Part shown: one piece after another, positions 56,698 to 64,000 of the stretch
How positions within the stretch are numbered: the first letter of the stretch is position 1
Layout of the letters: every line of letters starts with the position of its first letter
NCBI RefSeq assembly: GCF_000016605.1
Contig: NC_009440.1
Span: 1,178,001 to 1,242,000 of the forward strand
Direction of reading: 5' to 3'
DNA: 64,000 nucleotides
Source of the DNA: Metallosphaera sedula DSM 5348
GTDB lineage: Archaea > Thermoproteota > Thermoprotei_A > Sulfolobales > Sulfolobaceae
Program-made: the position numbers and the translations under genes
Notes under the pieces: generated by a model
Database searches by the model: none
What the model was told of the DNA's origin: nothing
The model's input: the letters and a program-made list of their open reading frames with translations, nothing else

Positions 56698-56976
56698 TCA
56701 AACGTCAGCAATGTCATCCATCATCTTTTGCATGTTTTTCTTAAGTTCCTTGAATTTCCTCAGCTTATCCATGGTCTTCATCCCCTCTCCCGTCAACCTA
56801 TACTTCCCTTCGGAGAAGGAGATTAGACCGAGGTCCATGAGATGATTTAAGTACCTAAGAAATGAGTCATAGTTGAGACCAGACTTATACATCAAGTTGG
56901 TCTTATTGGTTCCAATACCCGAACAGCCCTCTAGCATACTTAAAACAATTTCTTGTCTAGTTCTTCTTATCATCAT
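56698..56976 (-). CDS. small winged-helix regulator, Sso10a/HTH_45-like
   Basis: The 92-residue protein begins with RRTRQEIVLSMLEGCSG and NLMYKSGLNYDSFLRYLNHLMDLGLIS, followed by a wing (EGKYRLTGEG) and a long C-terminal helix (MDKLRKFKELKKNMQKM) that would dimerise as in Sso10a. It binds DNA and may regulate nearby genes. It lies 450 bp from the secretion operon, on the same strand and downstream of it. Confidence 0.72.
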   Translation of the reverse strand: MMIRRTRQEIVLSMLEGCSGIGTNKTNLMYKSGLNYDSFLRYLNHLMDLGLISFSEGKYRLTGEGMKTMDKLRKFKELKKNMQKMMDDIADV

Positions 56977-57432
56977 AACCGGTTAAATTAACAACCTTTA
57001 ACTTATAAACTAAATGTACGTGTGAGCTCGTAACCTTGACAGAATTGTGATCCACTTGTCAAATCTTTATATCCTAATACGGACAAAAACTTGATGAGCC
57101 AGCACAAGAGAGTGATAGTGGTGTCCACTGACTCACGATGTTTTCTATCTTCATTGAGTGAGTAATTCTAGAACTTTAAGGATAACGAAGACAGAAGATC
57201 ATCACACATTCTTCTATTGAGGTTCCATGAACAAGGCGCCAGGAGAAGGCGGATCATCAGATATAAGCCTGAAAACCTCATATGACTCTTACTGTCTGGA
57301 GTATTTGATTACTTAACGCCAAATCTACGAATGGTTCTGATTCGGAGAATGACGTTAATTTTAGGATACTCCACACACTACATAACTCTTCAAAAATAAG
57401 TGCGGTGAAGATTAATAAAAAACTAAAAATAA
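56977..57432. other. spacer with repeat B and a possible small RNA
   Basis: About 455 bp between the small regulator and the DUF5305-like gene. It has a TATA-like CTTTATATCC at 57065-57074, followed at the expected start by TTGATGAG and, about 35 nt on, CCACTGACTC. Repeat copy B (57299-57380) lies at its right side. No gene is evident. Confidence 0.35.
57299..57380 (+). repeat. dispersed degenerate repeat, copy B
   Basis: Shares TCTACGAATGGTTCTGATT and GAGAATGACGTTA with copy A (minus strand, 4117-4196), and TATTTAATTACTT, GTTCTGAT, GAATGAC and TTAATTTT-like parts with copy C. Reads NAKSTNGSDSENDVNF in the same frame as copy A. It lies just past the 3' end of the DUF5305-like gene. Confidence 0.5.
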
Positions 57433-58386
57433 TTAACTTTTATACCAAACATAAGCGGTATCTGAGTCGATAACGTAATATCCCTTCTCGAACCTCACAG
57501 GAGTTCTGGATAAGGTTTTCGTGAGTTTCAGCAGCCCCCTAGCGCTTTCAACTTTGACTTCTCGAGTAACTGGTGGATTTGTCCCGCTCACTGACAACTT
57601 CCTCAATGTCCTCTCTGCCGCTGCCTCCGGATTCATGGCTTCTCCTGCCTTAGGTCCATAGACGAAGGAGACTCCTCCAAACAGTGCAAATATTCCTCCA
57701 GATATGAACAGCATCTTGTTGTACCCAGTCATCCCCTTCACAAGGTTCTGATGATAAAGCGTCTGGGTCACGTTACCCCCTGGATCCTGAGAGAAAGTAT
57801 AGTTCAGCGAGCCGAAATACACCTCCATGCTCTTATCAAGGGTCACTGGAATATTTCCCTGACTACTGTGGAGAGTCAGGTTGGCGACAACCACGAGCTT
57901 TATTGTAAATCTACTGGAACTGATCCCCACCTGCTGATTAATTTTCTGGGTTAAGTTATTGTACTGAGTTATGTTGGGAGAGTACTGGAAGAAGAGTGAC
58001 TGTCCTGAGGAGTTTTGGATCACCCCATGAAAGCTTCCCAAGTACTTTGTCCAATCGCTTGTGGAAAGATATTCATAAACTACGTAACTTCCATTGTACG
58101 AGGTGGGCGAACTTCCTGTGGCATTAACGTTGGCGTGTAGATTCACGCCCTCCACGAGTTTGGAGAACATTGAACTGGCGTTCACGCACGAGGCGTTGTT
58201 AAACAGGATGGAGTTGTTGATATGGAAATTGCTCCACAGGTTTAGTTGAGCCTGATAGCTATACGTTGGGACCTCATAACTCCTATAATAAGGAACGTTG
58301 GAGGCGTAGCCGTAATAGATCATGGTCCCTGAAATCGACAGAAATAGGAGGCATATTGCAAGTGCCAACATAGTTTTAGTTTTCAT
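57433..58386 (-). CDS. DUF5305-like membrane protein, last gene of the secretion operon
   Basis: The 317-residue protein has an N-terminal membrane helix, an extracellular domain of about 200 residues with many Asn and Ser (YSYQAQLNLWSNF...), a second helix (MLFISGGIFALFGGVSFVYG) and a cytosolic tail. This layout matches DUF5305 proteins, which in other archaea lie beside signal peptidases of the SipW type. The start overlaps the small secreted gene (ATGA). Its role is unknown. Confidence 0.65.
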   Translation of the reverse strand: MKTKTMLALAICLLFLSISGTMIYYGYASNVPYYRSYEVPTYSYQAQLNLWSNFHINNSILFNNASCVNASSMFSKLVEGVNLHANVNATGSSPTSYNGSYVVYEYLSTSDWTKYLGSFHGVIQNSSGQSLFFQYSPNITQYNNLTQKINQQVGISSSRFTIKLVVVANLTLHSSQGNIPVTLDKSMEVYFGSLNYTFSQDPGGNVTQTLYHQNLVKGMTGYNKMLFISGGIFALFGGVSFVYGPKAGEAMNPEAAAERTLRKLSVSGTNPPVTREVKVESARGLLKLTKTLSRTPVRFEKGYYVIDSDTAYVWYKS

Positions 58387-58811
58387 GAGAGATCAACCCC
58401 TACCAGCCCTAAGCTACCTTGAGCAATGAACATTTGCATGGACACGGTTGGAGTAGGTACTGAGGTTGAGTTGAGTGTGACCTCAGCACATGGTATTTGA
58501 TTAAAGTACTGAATCACCAGTTCCCCGTTCTGGAGCGTGTACGATCCGTCTGTTTTCACGCTAACTATGGAAGCGTGGGGGCAGATAATAACCACTTGAA
58601 TTTGGTTTGTATAGGATACTAGGTACACATCATTTAGCGACAGATCATAAGTTTGATTTCCCTCATACGAAATGGAGCCATATGCCATTGTGGGTCCTAT
58701 CTCAAAGACCCCACGATTCGAGACACCAAAACCTGGCATCCAGGATGAGAGAACCAGAAAGGATGCAACTGCGATCATGAACATGGTTAGAGCTATCTTA
58801 CCAATCATCAC
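58383..58811 (-). CDS. small secreted/membrane protein in the secretion operon
   Basis: The 142-residue protein has one N-terminal hydrophobic helix (IALTMFMIAVASFLVLSSWM) followed by a beta-rich extracellular domain with two Cys (ICPHAS, IPCAEV) that could pair. I do not recognise a family. It overlaps the signal peptidase gene by 14 nt and the DUF5305-like gene by 4 nt, so all three are one transcript. It may be a substrate or partner of the peptidase. Confidence 0.55.
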   Translation of the reverse strand: MMIGKIALTMFMIAVASFLVLSSWMPGFGVSNRGVFEIGPTMAYGSISYEGNQTYDLSLNDVYLVSYTNQIQVVIICPHASIVSVKTDGSYTLQNGELVIQYFNQIPCAEVTLNSTSVPTPTVSMQMFIAQGSLGLVGVDLS

Positions 58812-59907
58812 TTTTCAACCTCACAATGTACACGAACATTATAAATGGCAATGTACTAATGACCGAACTAATCAATAGCAACTCCAGGGGATAGTATTTC
58901 AGACCCTCTGCCAGCGCAGAAATAGGGAAAAGGGTCGGGATTACGAAGGCCTTGACCACAACCAACTTAAGTCCCTGAGATCCGTTTCCTATTGCGGTGA
59001 ACCTCAGGTGAAGAGTTTGAGAGGGCATAAGGATCATGTTTGTTGGAGTCACGTTATAGTAAGCTGAGCTCGAACCCTTGACCGAGGATACCTCGACATA
59101 TTCAGGTATGAGAAGTCTGTTAGTCACGTTAACGACGTAGGAAGATGAATGTCCATGTAAGATGACCCCCAGGTTTATTGAGGGCGTGTTTAGAGCTCCA
59201 CCTCCGATCTCAACTGGAGTATTAGAGGTAAAATACGAAAAGGTGGCGGAGAAGGACATCGCGAGGGAGGCAATAATCGTAAAGGAGATGACCACAATAC
59301 CTATAGCCAACATAATTCCCTTCGTGGAAATCCTCAGCTCTCTGCGTTGATGCCTTCTGTTGAAGGACGTATCCAGGATAAGGAAGGATATTCCCATCAG
59401 CGTGAGAATTATAACCCCCTCCAAGGAGTTATTTTCTAGGAAATAGACTATAGATCCTATTCCCGGAACAATTACGGGGTTACCACCTAGGATAAGGAGC
59501 TTCCCATAGACCTCTGAGGAGTTCACAGGGGGCATGTATATCTGATCCACATAATCATCATTTATCCCCTTGGTGATGAACCCCTTGGCAGTGGAATTTA
59601 CCACCTGGTGGATTATGTAAGGTGGATATCCCGGTATCTTCCCGTAATCTGGATCGTGAAACACGATCATGTCTCCTACATTCACCTTTCCTGCAAAGGG
59701 TTCCGGTACAATAAACACCAACTCCCCCGGCTTAAGGTAGGGATACATACTATATCCGCTAGTAAATGCAACGAATAGGGGTCTTCCGTCGAGATTCGCA
59801 GAGATTACGGCAATTGAAAAGATCAAGAGGATGACAAGGAAAACCTTAAACAGCAATTTTAGGATAGGCTTAACGTATTCCCAGGTCAGGTCGACAACAG
59901 GGTTCAA
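58798..59907 (-). CDS. S26-family signal peptidase fused to an extracellular domain
   Basis: The 369-residue protein has an N-terminal helix and a signal peptidase I domain with Ser in TSGYSMYP, His in YIIHQVV in place of the bacterial Lys (the archaeal/ER type), and Asp in ITKGINDDYVD. Unlike usual archaeal enzymes, which end after the catalytic domain, it continues with two helices, an extracellular beta domain of about 90 residues (VEIGGGALNTPSINLGVIL...) and a final helix. It is first in a three-gene operon. It probably cuts signal peptides of specific surface proteins. Confidence 0.8.
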   Translation of the reverse strand: MNPVVDLTWEYVKPILKLLFKVFLVILLIFSIAVISANLDGRPLFVAFTSGYSMYPYLKPGELVFIVPEPFAGKVNVGDMIVFHDPDYGKIPGYPPYIIHQVVNSTAKGFITKGINDDYVDQIYMPPVNSSEVYGKLLILGGNPVIVPGIGSIVYFLENNSLEGVIILTLMGISFLILDTSFNRRHQRRELRISTKGIMLAIGIVVISFTIIASLAMSFSATFSYFTSNTPVEIGGGALNTPSINLGVILHGHSSSYVVNVTNRLLIPEYVEVSSVKGSSSAYYNVTPTNMILMPSQTLHLRFTAIGNGSQGLKLVVVKAFVIPTLFPISALAEGLKYYPLELLLISSVISTLPFIMFVYIVRLKSDDW

Positions 59908-60191
59908 GGACTCTCAACTCCATAGCCTGAGCTAATTAATATCATGATCTACTGACTGTTTGAAAAATATTTAAAATACTCTCATTTAATCCTGCCCTAG
60001 TACATACTTGACTATCTCACTGGTAGTCACGAAAATCTCCACAAGGTAGTTAACCCCTGCGGAAAGTCTTCATCTAGAAGATTTGATCCGTGTCTCGTTA
60101 CTCATGTATTACCTGTTGGGGCAGATATATAGTAGTTTAAGCTTTGCTCAGTCCCATTTTATTAACTCTTCATATAATTAACCATGATGTT

Positions 60192-60749
60192 ATGTTTTTG
60201 ACATTACTCGAATTAATTAACCTTGTACTATCCGCGACCAGTTTGATACTGTTATGGAAATTAGTTGATTATTACGATAAGATGATCTCATCTATGAAGA
60301 ACAAGGCGATAAACGGAGTCGTCCTTGACTTTTTGATGTCGCTCACTGACCTGTTAACCCAGGGAGACGCAATGAACCTTCTCGAAGATCTGCTAGTATA
60401 CATAACGAATCTTCAGGGAAAGGAGTGGAACGATATATACTCTGAGGTTATCAGCAAGTTTGTTCCCATAAAGAGGCAACTGGAGCTCGTGTTAAGTAAG
60501 GCCAATGGAATAGGTGACTTGACAAATAGAATCAATTCTTCTAGGTTTATCACAAGGTCGATCAAGATTCTCTCGGTCATAGCTGTGATAGAGGCAGTGC
60601 TAGGACCCTTCTCTAGACTAATGAGCTCTTTTCAGTTTCAGGTCGTGCTCTACGGAAACGTTATCCTTCTTATTTTGATCATCATTGTTCTCTTGATTCA
60701 TGTTTCCAACACTGTTAAACTGATGTCATCAGTGAACAAGACAAATTAA
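60192..60749 (+). CDS. hypothetical membrane protein with a central cytosolic helix region
   Basis: The 185-residue protein (from ATG 60192; TTG 60144 is the longer option) has an N-terminal helix, a helical middle of about 100 residues (LMSLTDLLTQGDAMNLLEDLL...) and two C-terminal helices (IKILSVIAVIEAVLGPF, VILLILIIIVLLI). I recognise no family. It lies between the secretion operon and repeat copy C. Confidence 0.5.
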   Translation: MFLTLLELINLVLSATSLILLWKLVDYYDKMISSMKNKAINGVVLDFLMSLTDLLTQGDAMNLLEDLLVYITNLQGKEWNDIYSEVISKFVPIKRQLELVLSKANGIGDLTNRINSSRFITRSIKILSVIAVIEAVLGPFSRLMSSFQFQVVLYGNVILLILIIIVLLIHVSNTVKLMSSVNKTN

Positions 60750-60868: not shown

Positions 60869-60945
60869 AGTATTTAATTACTTGGCGCCAATTTGAATAG
60901 TTCTGATCTCACGAATGACATTAATTTTGATATGTTCCACACTAG
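60869..60945 (+). repeat. dispersed degenerate repeat, copy C
   Basis: The most diverged copy: TATTTAATTACTTGGCGCCAA, GTTCTGAT and GAATGACATTAATTTTGAT match copy B. In the same frame it reads GANLNSSDLTNDINFDMFHT. About 40 bp upstream, CACTTGTCAAACTT matches CACTTGTCAAATCTT near 57056, so C may be a deleted form of a longer unit that includes B. It touches the stop codon of the Rieske gene. Confidence 0.4.
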
Positions 60946-61283
60946 TCTACGTTAACGAATAGCTCATCATTTACTATCTTGATATCGTAGACTTTCAAAT
61001 CTGGGGACCGAAACCACGATCCCGGTTTATTGCTGTAAATGTTTGGTATTAGTTTTCCATCACACAAATCATACTCGTAATAATGTAGGTGACACCTTAT
61101 TCTGCATCTCCCGTCGCATAAGACGTCTCCATACTCCAGATTTCCTCCCTTATGCGGACAGTACGCATCCATGGCAAATATCCTATCCCCGACTTTCACA
61201 ATAACAACGTCCACATGGTCAAGCCGGAACTTAGTGGGTTTTCCCTCCTTAAGTTCCGGTGCTCTACATACCTTCACGAACAT
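60942..61283 (-). CDS. Rieske-type [2Fe-2S] ferredoxin
   Basis: The 113-residue soluble Rieske protein has AYCPHKGG (Cys-His) and RCHLHYYEYDL (Cys-x2-His), the complete four-ligand set of the Rieske cluster. It has no membrane anchor, so it is a mobile electron carrier like those serving oxygenases. It follows the DPSL gene by 15 nt on the same strand and probably shares its transcript. Confidence 0.85.
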   Translation of the reverse strand: MFVKVCRAPELKEGKPTKFRLDHVDVVIVKVGDRIFAMDAYCPHKGGNLEYGDVLCDGRCRIRCHLHYYEYDLCDGKLIPNIYSNKPGSWFRSPDLKVYDIKIVNDELFVNVD

Positions 61284-61298
61284 CTTTATCCCAAAAAA

Positions 61299-61883
61299 TC
61301 ACTCATATCTTGATTTCCTAGAGAAGGGACCTTCCCCTGGATAGTTTCTCCTGAAGTGGCCCGATGGCCTACTGTAAAGTAGCTCCATGAACCAAGCCTC
61401 ATGCTCTATCTCTTCCTGCAATATTCTCTGTGCAAGGTCATAGGTTCTGGGATCTTTTCCGTAGGTCATGTCACATACCTCCTTCCATGTTCTTATGGCG
61501 CACTGCTCCGCCTCTAGTAGCACCTTCAGTATCTCCTTAGGATCTTTCCAGTTCTCGGGCAGGTACGCATCAGCACATGCAGACAACTCAGCCACTTGCC
61601 TTATGTCCTTAGGTAATGTTCCACCTAATTCGTAGATTCTTTGCGACATGAGTTCAAAGTGTAGCCTGTCCTCTAATCTAGCGTCCTCGGCTATCTCCTT
61701 AAATCCCTCTCCTTCCATACCCGATAGATGCATCCTGAGATTCGTGTAGTAGTAGTACGTCGTGAACTCCGCTGCTGTTGCTCTCACGAGCTTCTCTATG
61801 AGTTTCTTGACATCTAATCCAGATTTTTCCAGGATTTCTACGCCCACTACCGTAGGCTCATCCCTTTGAGGTTTATCTTGCAT
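61299..61883 (-). CDS. Dps-like protein (DPSL/thioferritin type)
   Basis: The 194-residue four-helix bundle has ferritin-like di-iron ligands: Glu in [10 protein letters not shown], the E..H pair in [11 protein letters not shown], Glu in [11 protein letters not shown] and [13 protein letters not shown]. The Cys residues ([23 protein letters not shown]) and the length fit the DPSL/thioferritin class known from Sulfolobus, which protects DNA from peroxide and stores iron. The Rieske protein downstream may deliver electrons to its di-iron site (inference). Confidence 0.8.
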
Positions 61884-62047
61884 TTATTCACCCTCATAAT
61901 CTAGAATGAATACTATATTATAAAATATTCTAACTAAGAGTTACTCCAATCTTCCTAACATGATCTTAATAGTAAGAAATAATAGTTGTTGAAAGTTAAT
62001 TTTAGATAAGAATACTTATAATTTAGTTAGTAGCAAGATCTGGTAGG

Positions 62048-62137
62048 ATGTTTATGAATTGTGTACAGAACCATGAAATTCAGGGATGTCTTAGCCATCG
62101 AGGACAACAGTGTGAGATTACCTCATCTACTTTCTAA
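62048..62137 (+). CDS. 29-residue Cys/His-rich leader ORF before the Nramp-like gene
   Basis: ATG 62048 opens a short frame with Cys at positions 5, 14 and 22 and His at 9 and 17, ending 14 nt before the transporter start. CTTATAATT about 30 nt upstream is a likely TATA box. The spacing of Cys/His could bind a metal, which fits the metal transporter downstream, but the frame is short and may be chance. Confidence 0.3.
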   Translation: MFMNCVQNHEIQGCLSHRGQQCEITSSTF

Positions 62138-62151
62138 CTGAGGTGAAGAAA

Positions 62152-63324
62152 ATGAGCATAAGGGATTCAGCTAAACTTTTTGGACCTGCATGGATAGCTC
62201 TCTTGGCAGATTCCGACGCGGCCAGTATTTTAGGAGGAGTATCGTCCGGAGAAGAATTTGGTTACAGGCTAATCTGGTTCCTGCTAGTTCTTTCCATTCC
62301 TCTGTTCATTATTCAGGAAGCCTCTGGGAGGTTGGGAGCGGTATCAAATCGAGGTATTGGCACACTAATCAGGGAAAACTACTCTAGGAGAACATCTATA
62401 CTGGCTACAATTCCAATCTTCGTGGTCGACTTTTTCACTTATCTCAGCGAATATGCTGGGATAGCTATTGGATCTGTTTTGGTGGGAATAAATCCCCTAG
62501 TCGGGTTACTGATGTTCTTTGGACTTCATGTTCTGGTTATTGTAACCAGAAATTATCAGATTACGGAGAAATCCCTTATTCTCACATCGGTTATCTTGAT
62601 CTTGTCGTCCCTCATTATAGTGGCACCAAGAATTAACTCTGGGGAGAGCCTGGTTTATTTTTCGAGTTCTCGGAACTACTTCTTTTATCTAGCAATAAAC
62701 GTTGGTGCCGTGGTCACGCCTCCTTGTATGCTGATTTACCAGAGCTCTGCCACGGCAACCAAATACTCTTCCCTAAGGATAGATACCTCAAAAAAGGTGT
62801 CCTGGCTCAATTTGGAGACAGTCGCGGGGTCTATAGTGACCGAGATCATTGTTGTAATAGCTGAGATCGTGGGAACAATCCTAGGTGGGGTTGACCCAGA
62901 GGATCCATTAAAGCTGGGAAATGTCCTAGGTCAGCTCCGTTTCATATTTGGTGTGACCCTAATTACTGCAGGTTTTCTTACACTCGTAGTAGTCTCCTTA
63001 AGTAGTGCCTGGGGAGTTTTAGAGGCCATTAACAGAAACAGCTACAATAATACTATAAAGTTATATATCCTGGAATCTATTCCCGCAGTTCTTATCATCT
63101 TATTAGTGGGTAGTAATTATTCGACGATAGTTAACTTCGCCTTGACCTTACTCTCGCTGTCGCCCATAGTTGTTGCATTGCCAGGTATACTCATAGGGAT
63201 ACTTTTGAGCAAACGCGAAATCATGGGAGGATATGCATATGGCAAGGCGAGACTAATCCTGTATTTTGTGACAATAGCGTTGATAACGTTGGGCGGAATT
63301 ATAGGTATCATTGAACTGGCATAG
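62152..63324 (+). CDS. Nramp-related divalent metal transporter, atypical motifs
   Basis: The 390-residue protein has about eleven membrane helices. Helix 1 reads GPAWIALLADSDAASILGG, where classic Nramp has DPGN, keeping only the first Asp. Helix 6 reads GAVVTPPCMLIYQSSA instead of the MPH motif. It belongs to the wider ADxDAxS group of Nramp relatives in prokaryotes. The metal (Mn, Fe, Mg or another) is therefore uncertain, as the site residues differ. A GAGGTGA ribosome site decides ATG 62152 over GTG 62143. The nearby DPSL suggests an iron/manganese and stress setting. Confidence 0.75.
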   Translation: MSIRDSAKLFGPAWIALLADSDAASILGGVSSGEEFGYRLIWFLLVLSIPLFIIQEASGRLGAVSNRGIGTLIRENYSRRTSILATIPIFVVDFFTYLSEYAGIAIGSVLVGINPLVGLLMFFGLHVLVIVTRNYQITEKSLILTSVILILSSLIIVAPRINSGESLVYFSSSRNYFFYLAINVGAVVTPPCMLIYQSSATATKYSSLRIDTSKKVSWLNLETVAGSIVTEIIVVIAEIVGTILGGVDPEDPLKLGNVLGQLRFIFGVTLITAGFLTLVVVSLSSAWGVLEAINRNSYNNTIKLYILESIPAVLIILLVGSNYSTIVNFALTLLSLSPIVVALPGILIGILLSKREIMGGYAYGKARLILYFVTIALITLGGIIGIIELA

Positions 63325-63587
63325 TGATAGTGTCATCTCTACCAAGAATCACAGTAATAGGTAACGTTTCGTCATCTTAAGCGGGCAGACAAAGGATGAG
63401 TTGACGTAGTTCATTTGACGATGATTGGCCCGTTTCAAGAAATCGACCAAGTTAGATTCTTACTCTTTTTAGTAGATACGATGTCTAGTCCTAGATATAT
63501 ATCACACAATTTTTGATATATATTTTATTTTAACATGATGAACTTAATTTAAATAGTTGGTCTCGCTCTTATGTTTTCAGTGAAACC
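63325..63587. other. spacer with promoter of the last gene
   Basis: About 260 bp. TTTAAATAG at 63548-63556 is a TATA-like box. An ATG at 63571 opens only six codons and its TGA overlaps the GTG of the next gene. I see nothing else. Confidence 0.35.
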
Positions 63588-64000
63588 GTGAATCTGAAAA
63601 CTGTAACCGCAATATCCGTGTTAGTCGCGTTAGCTACAGTGTTGTTTGCCCAGATGTTTTTAGTGGGTTTCAGCATTGGGACTGACGTTGGTGGAAGCGT
63701 TGTGAACATTAATAGTCATGACGCTCTAATAGAGATTCAACCTCTTGAAAACTTCGCTACTGTTAACGGCGCAGGTCAGTTGACTGTGAATCTACCTGAG
63801 GTAGGACCTGGTAGTGCTCCAGCTACAAATTTAGTTAATGATCAGGGGAATAATTATACGGCTATATATGTCTGGAAAGTAGTTGATGTACAATATAATG
63901 GAAATGGTACATTAATGGTTAATGCCTCTATCGAGGACGCACACTTCTCTCCATCTAGCGTAGATCAAAATATTGGGTTCCTTATACTTGCTTATCCAAA
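63588..64000 (+). CDS. secreted surface protein, partial, cut by window end
   Basis: From GTG 63588 an open frame runs to the window edge (137 residues visible). It has a signal or anchor segment (VTAISVLVALATVLFAQMFLVG) followed directly by a beta-rich, Asn/Gly/Val-rich domain (GGSVVNINSHDALIEIQPL...). This resembles archaeal surface-fibre or pilus-like subunits of the TasA-like kind in general layout only. It may be a substrate of the signal peptidase operon (inference). The C-terminus is not visible. Confidence 0.55.
   Translation, partial: MNLKTVTAISVLVALATVLFAQMFLVGFSIGTDVGGSVVNINSHDALIEIQPLENFATVNGAGQLTVNLPEVGPGSAPATNLVNDQGNNYTAIYVWKVVDVQYNGNGTLMVNASIEDAHFSPSSVDQNIGFLILAYP

Follow-up and report, generated by a model that had tools for sequence, protein, structure and literature searches.

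The analysed window is a 64,000-nucleotide stretch of the genome of Metallosphaera sedula DSM 5348 (NC_009440.1, positions 1,178,001 to 1,242,000; genome size 2,191,517 bases), and the subject here is a gene cassette near its end that encodes a signal peptidase (P), two secreted proteins (S and A) and a DUF5305 membrane protein (D), which we interpret as a probable surface-fibre biogenesis system. An earlier note on this DNA had described three overlapping genes at 57433-59907, for a peptidase, a small secreted protein and a DUF5305-like protein; these open reading frames are present on the minus strand, with overlaps of 14 nucleotides between P and S and 4 nucleotides between S and D. The partial surface protein noticed at 63588, here named A, proved to be complete beyond the window, with 233 amino acids. 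The core features are the following:

58798-59907, minus strand: P, S26 signal peptidase of the endoplasmic reticulum (ER)/SipW type, 369 amino acids, TTG start (assigned by TIGR02228, invariant residues and hydropathy)
59749-59751, minus strand: catalytic Ser53 of P, invariant
59608-59610, minus strand: catalytic His100 of P, invariant
59545-59547, minus strand: catalytic Asp121 of P, invariant
58383-58811, minus strand: S, small secreted protein, 142 amino acids (between P and D in eight genomes; signal-region motif)
57433-58386, minus strand: D, DUF5305 membrane protein, 317 amino acids (assigned by PF17231, hydropathy and conserved order)
63588-64000, plus strand, continuing past the window end (L002:10589-11290): A, secreted protein, presumed major subunit and substrate, confined to cassette genomes

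P scored 54.7 bits against the archaeal signal peptidase I model TIGR02228 (cut-off 51.85), and its match to Pfam S26 was weak (15.3 bits, below the cut-off of 22.9). D matched DUF5305 (PF17231) with 36.3 bits, above the gathering cut-off of 29, and some of its orthologues scored under that value; its hydropathy profile gave a helix at residues 5-23, an ectodomain, a second helix at 225-243 and a cytosolic tail. S begins with a hydrophobic segment (residues 3-21) followed by the motif F-x-V-S-N, and is presumed to be a minor substrate or subunit. The other S26 peptidase of the genome is a short, housekeeping enzyme encoded at a separate location, indicating that P is an extra, dedicated peptidase.

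The residues Ser53, His100 and Asp121 were unchanged across eight P orthologues and ten diverse S26 proteins, so that the Ser-His-Asp site, whose possible incompleteness the earlier note had named as grounds for doubt, is complete. The serine lies in an S-M-x-P box, histidine replaces the general-base lysine and the essential aspartate is present, as in the S26B group; the second conserved aspartate of S26 is Ile115 in P, and in archaeal signal peptidases one aspartate alone is essential (PMC2913515). P is accordingly classed by its residues as a putative ER/archaeal-type (S26B) signal peptidase, for which cleavage of signal peptides is predicted.

A search of 60 relatives detected A in 9 of the 31 genomes of the family and P in 8 of them. 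In eight of the nine A genomes, P, S and D occurred in the same order, near A, near the gene for a membrane protein, M, and near winged-helix genes, indicating that the arrangement is not due to chance; the probability that all eight P genomes would fall within the nine A genomes was about 1e-6, relatedness being ignored. Neighbours that varied freely would have spoken against a dedicated system, and the opposite was found: the P-S-D order and the linkage with A and M were kept across the cassette genomes, and the co-occurrence with secreted genes, proposed as a check, held for A and S in all P genomes. In five genomes A and P share a strand and the end of A precedes P by 44-48 base pairs (bp); in two Metallosphaera genomes A is divergent from P, about 1.35 and 1.56 kilobases (kb) apart, with M between them. 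In the ninth A genome (L074:8204-9967) two transposases, of the DDE and IS110 types, replace P and S, while A is intact and a fragment of D is left; this locus represents a natural loss of the peptidase. A was found in no further genome when 229 genomes of the class were searched, and viral contigs scanned for A and P yielded no match. The scan of genome contigs returned one true orthologue, in M. javensis; two bacterial S24/S26-like domains from the same scan were set aside, as they sit in unrelated proteins.

Surface layers (S-layers) are general in Sulfolobaceae, and a peptidase for exported proteins in an S-layer-bearing archaeon might be expected to process SlaA/SlaB or other surface-layer proteins. 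This alternative, raised by the earlier note itself, we regard as scarcely probable, because most Sulfolobaceae lack the cassette, P being limited to the eight family genomes mentioned, and because its conserved neighbours are A and S and include no S-layer genes.

The relation between A and S lies in their signal regions. The S profile matched the first 37 residues of A, and since the match is limited to the hydrophobic segment and the motif, it reflects a shared signal region and not a shared fold. In both proteins the hydrophobic segment ends in F-x-(P/A)-(G/A)-F-x-(V/I)-S-N; the core of this motif occurred in 15 of the 478 hydrophobic segments in the loci read, 13 of the 15 being in A or S proteins. 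A motif common to A and S and rare elsewhere makes both likely substrates of P, and we infer that P cuts them. In a different arrangement, A and S would stay uncut and would be joined with P and D in a surface complex anchored in the membrane, where P acts on another target or as a scaffold. In favour of it, a membrane link is predicted for D, for the P ectodomain and for the hydrophobic segments of both A and S; we nevertheless judge this arrangement very unlikely, given that the catalytic triad is invariant in all P orthologues and that the shared motif sits exactly at the expected cut.

Outside the family, the context of DUF5305 was informative. PF17231 was found in 31 of 300 Thermoproteota genomes, and 20 DUF5305 loci outside the family were read, five of them cut by contig ends, leaving 15 complete contexts. 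An S26 gene lay within 1.5 kb of DUF5305, or was fused to it, in 13 of the 20 loci (13 of the 15 complete contexts), with two real negatives. The fusion is a protein of 517 amino acids (L125:6138-7691) that joins S26 (residues 11-150) to DUF5305 (residues 307-509), and suggests that the two predicted functions work together. Alongside an HTH_45 gene, many of these loci encode secreted proteins that start in a SipW-like manner. Four of these proteins (L119, L126, L127) were combined in a profile that matched the solved fibre protein AbpX (9sj2, E-value 1.7e-11; 9rhp, 2.6e-9), described as a donor-strand fibre of Pyrodictium (PMC11952670), and the secreted protein of L113 matched TasA (PF12389, 9e-13; PDB 8aur, 2.8e-4), indicating that such cassettes make fibres in at least some lineages. 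The link that the earlier note had drawn from DUF5305 to SipW-type peptidases and fibre proteins is thus borne out by synteny, by the fusion and by the AbpX and TasA matches; no mention of DUF5305 was found in the literature search.

From the position of DUF5305 beside or fused to S26 elsewhere, often with proteins matching AbpX or TasA, we conclude that the cassette is most likely a SipW/TasA-like surface-fibre biogenesis system, working like the tapA-sipW-tasA operon of Bacillus, and assign this reading a probability of roughly 0.7. Gene context and the AbpX and TasA links uphold the fibre half of the earlier proposal of a fibre or surface-layer processing system; its surface-layer half is unlikely, the cassette being present in a minority of the family. 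The fibre would most likely be one not described before, with an unrecognised subunit, A, and a two-domain peptidase.

Several results weigh against this reading. The three A proteins closest to that of the window, from Metallosphaera, keep the GF of the motif and lack the SN part. Neither Pfam nor NCBIfam gave a match to A, whose profile retrieved nothing from the PDB set even at an E-value of 5; A and S did not match the SipW-type signal model TIGR04088. AlphaFold predictions from shallow alignments were unusable, both for A (two sequences, mean predicted local distance difference test score, pLDDT, 36.8) and for P (four sequences, mean pLDDT 37.0). No expression, cleavage or microscopy data for the cassette were found. 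Neither A nor S belonged to the TasA/camelysin families when compared with PF12389 and TIGR04088, and no TasA match was obtained in NCBIfam. With no sequence likeness to known fibre proteins and with failed structure predictions, A is presumed to be a fibre protein from the position of its gene. The missing fibre-family match and the failed fold prediction of A would also suit a second signal peptidase serving one or a few soluble secreted proteins, in which case A and S would be binding proteins, extracellular or on the surface, and there would be no fibre at all. We consider this unlikely, since cassettes of the same type elsewhere contain AbpX-like and TasA-like fibre proteins, A and S carry no enzyme signature, and a machine bound to the membrane is suggested by the DUF5305 partner and by the fusion of DUF5305 to S26.

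According to the fibre reading, A (as the abundant subunit) and S (as a minor one) would be exported via Sec and held in the membrane by their hydrophobic N-terminal segments, P would cut them near the F-x-(P/A)-(G/A)-F-x-(V/I)-S-N region, and the freed subunits would assemble extracellularly into a polymer. Two partners, D and the P ectodomain, would remain in the membrane to anchor, guide or nucleate the fibre; M may be an accessory membrane protein, and the winged-helix genes may regulate the cassette. That A polymerises, and what D, M, the regulators and the P ectodomain do, is proposed here as part of the model. If the reading is right, DUF5305, a family of no known function, could be assigned to a machine occurring across Thermoproteota, and SipW-type fibre export would appear to be more widespread than the relatives of TasA alone show.

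The first half of P is of the usual kind and comprises, by hydropathy, a helix at residues 18-36 followed by the catalytic domain, and the second half a helix at 164-182, a basic loop, a helix at 198-216, an ectodomain at about 220-340 and a C-terminal helix at 344-362. The extra C-terminal ectodomain and added helices described in the earlier note thus appear as a second, membrane-flanked domain of about 115 residues between the last two helices. It had a weak Ig-like match (choice_anch_D), far under the cut-off, and is related to the ectodomain of P', a peptidase of other Sulfolobaceae described below. The third helix of P ends like a substrate signal, in SATFSYFTSN, and in the L113 peptidase, from another lineage, the start of the corresponding part matched the SipW-substrate signal model with 22.7 bits (cut-off 19). 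This match, together with the separate gene for an Ig-like (DUF11) protein that lies between peptidase and DUF5305 in L118 and L122, suggests that the P ectodomain is a substrate-like module tethered to the enzyme. A bolder version, in which the ectodomain derives from a fibre subunit and the cutting of subunits is combined in a single protein with seeding, capping or anchoring of the fibre, is an idea that we hold as rather doubtful. Profile comparison of the P ectodomain with those of the L113 and L115 peptidases gave no significant relation, and we therefore claim no homology between the ectodomain and TasA across lineages.

The remaining features of the region are these:

59968-59976, minus strand: TATA-like box TTTTAAATA upstream of P, conserved in three Metallosphaera genomes
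63548-63555, plus strand: TATA-like box TTTAAATA upstream of A, conserved in orthologous upstream regions
60144-60749, plus strand: M, conserved membrane protein, 201 amino acids, essentially single-copy and always in the cluster
56698-56976, minus strand: R1, winged-helix protein of the HTH_45 / Sso10a family (HTH_45, 91.6 bits; Sso10a family, 71.2 bits)
L002:11756-12082, just past the window end: R2, second winged-helix protein
60942-61283: Rieske protein (Pfam), interposed, outside the cassette
61299-61883: ferritin-like protein (Pfam), interposed, outside the cassette
62143-63324: NRAMP protein (Pfam), interposed, outside the cassette

Where A adjoins P, a T run precedes the start of P; this run and the TATA-like box of A itself fit a prediction that A is expressed strongly and the remaining genes less so. 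The genome has four strong HTH_45 genes, two of which flank the cassette. No gene is present in the roughly 450 bp that separate R1 from D (56977-57432), a space that could contain a remnant or a control region. The Rieske, ferritin-like and NRAMP genes (60942-63324), which may form a set for iron handling, lie with M between P and A in the window; at that place in the remaining cassette genomes they are absent, apart from an NRAMP remnant in M. javensis (L064:8591-8893). In one genome (G010, L078:7783-9116) the DUF5305 - winged helix - M end of the cassette is found again elsewhere, as an incomplete copy with a stop codon in M.

A sister system is found in eight other family genomes (L048-L053, L075, L076), which carry P', a two-domain peptidase related to P over 292 columns with the ectodomain included (hhalign, E-value 2e-23). 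In the loci read, P' lies directly downstream of a secreted protein, T, and a DUF5305 gene is found beside P' in L052, where two more T-like genes occur nearby; in L050 the DUF5305 match was weak and under the cut-off. Both systems pair a two-domain peptidase with a secreted protein, but T has no detectable kinship to A (no significant relation in profile comparison), the match of the T profile to P was weak and suggestive at most, and the A-P and T-P' systems were together in none of the genomes examined (chance 0.04). The DUF5305-S26 cassettes of other Thermoproteota, of the archaeal bundling pili type, resemble that of the window in joining S26, DUF5305, secreted proteins and often HTH_45 in one cluster, whereas their substrates come from other families than A and S; the L113 and L115 peptidases have a C-terminal ectodomain as in P, while in those of L119, L122 and L126 the extra part is N-terminal.

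Genome G020, which we take to be Sulfolobus acidocaldarius DSM 639, carries the cassette at 1.56 megabases and, at L130:2900-3520, the gene for the thread subunit (Saci_0406 cluster), recognised by its LVADV and YYY sequence. The threads of this species are filaments of a non-type-IV-pilus kind, their subunit being a substrate of signal peptidase I (PMC9715654), as is proposed for the Sulfolobales filament considered here, but they are encoded at another locus. The G020 thread cluster matched none of the A, S, P, D and T profiles, and A of the window aligned with the thread subunit with 18.9 bits only (BLASTP), short of thread-family likeness, indicating that the cassette is distinct from the threads. 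S. acidocaldarius has been described with four filaments (PMC11607397); if its cassette makes a fibre, this would be a fifth, whose subunit, peptidase and partners can be named and which occurs in an archaeon amenable to genetics.

The layout as a whole is that of a SipW/TasA-like system, with a dedicated peptidase linked to the secreted A and S, its presumed substrates. In TasA, which has SipW as its own ER-type processing peptidase, an aromatic residue directly follows the cut (PMC10269814), and A and S likewise have an aromatic residue right after the likely cut. The cassette differs from the tapA-sipW-tasA operon of Bacillus subtilis in that the sequences of A and S are those of neither TasA nor TapA, that P has a second, membrane-flanked ectodomain, and that a DUF5305 partner and M are added to the set.
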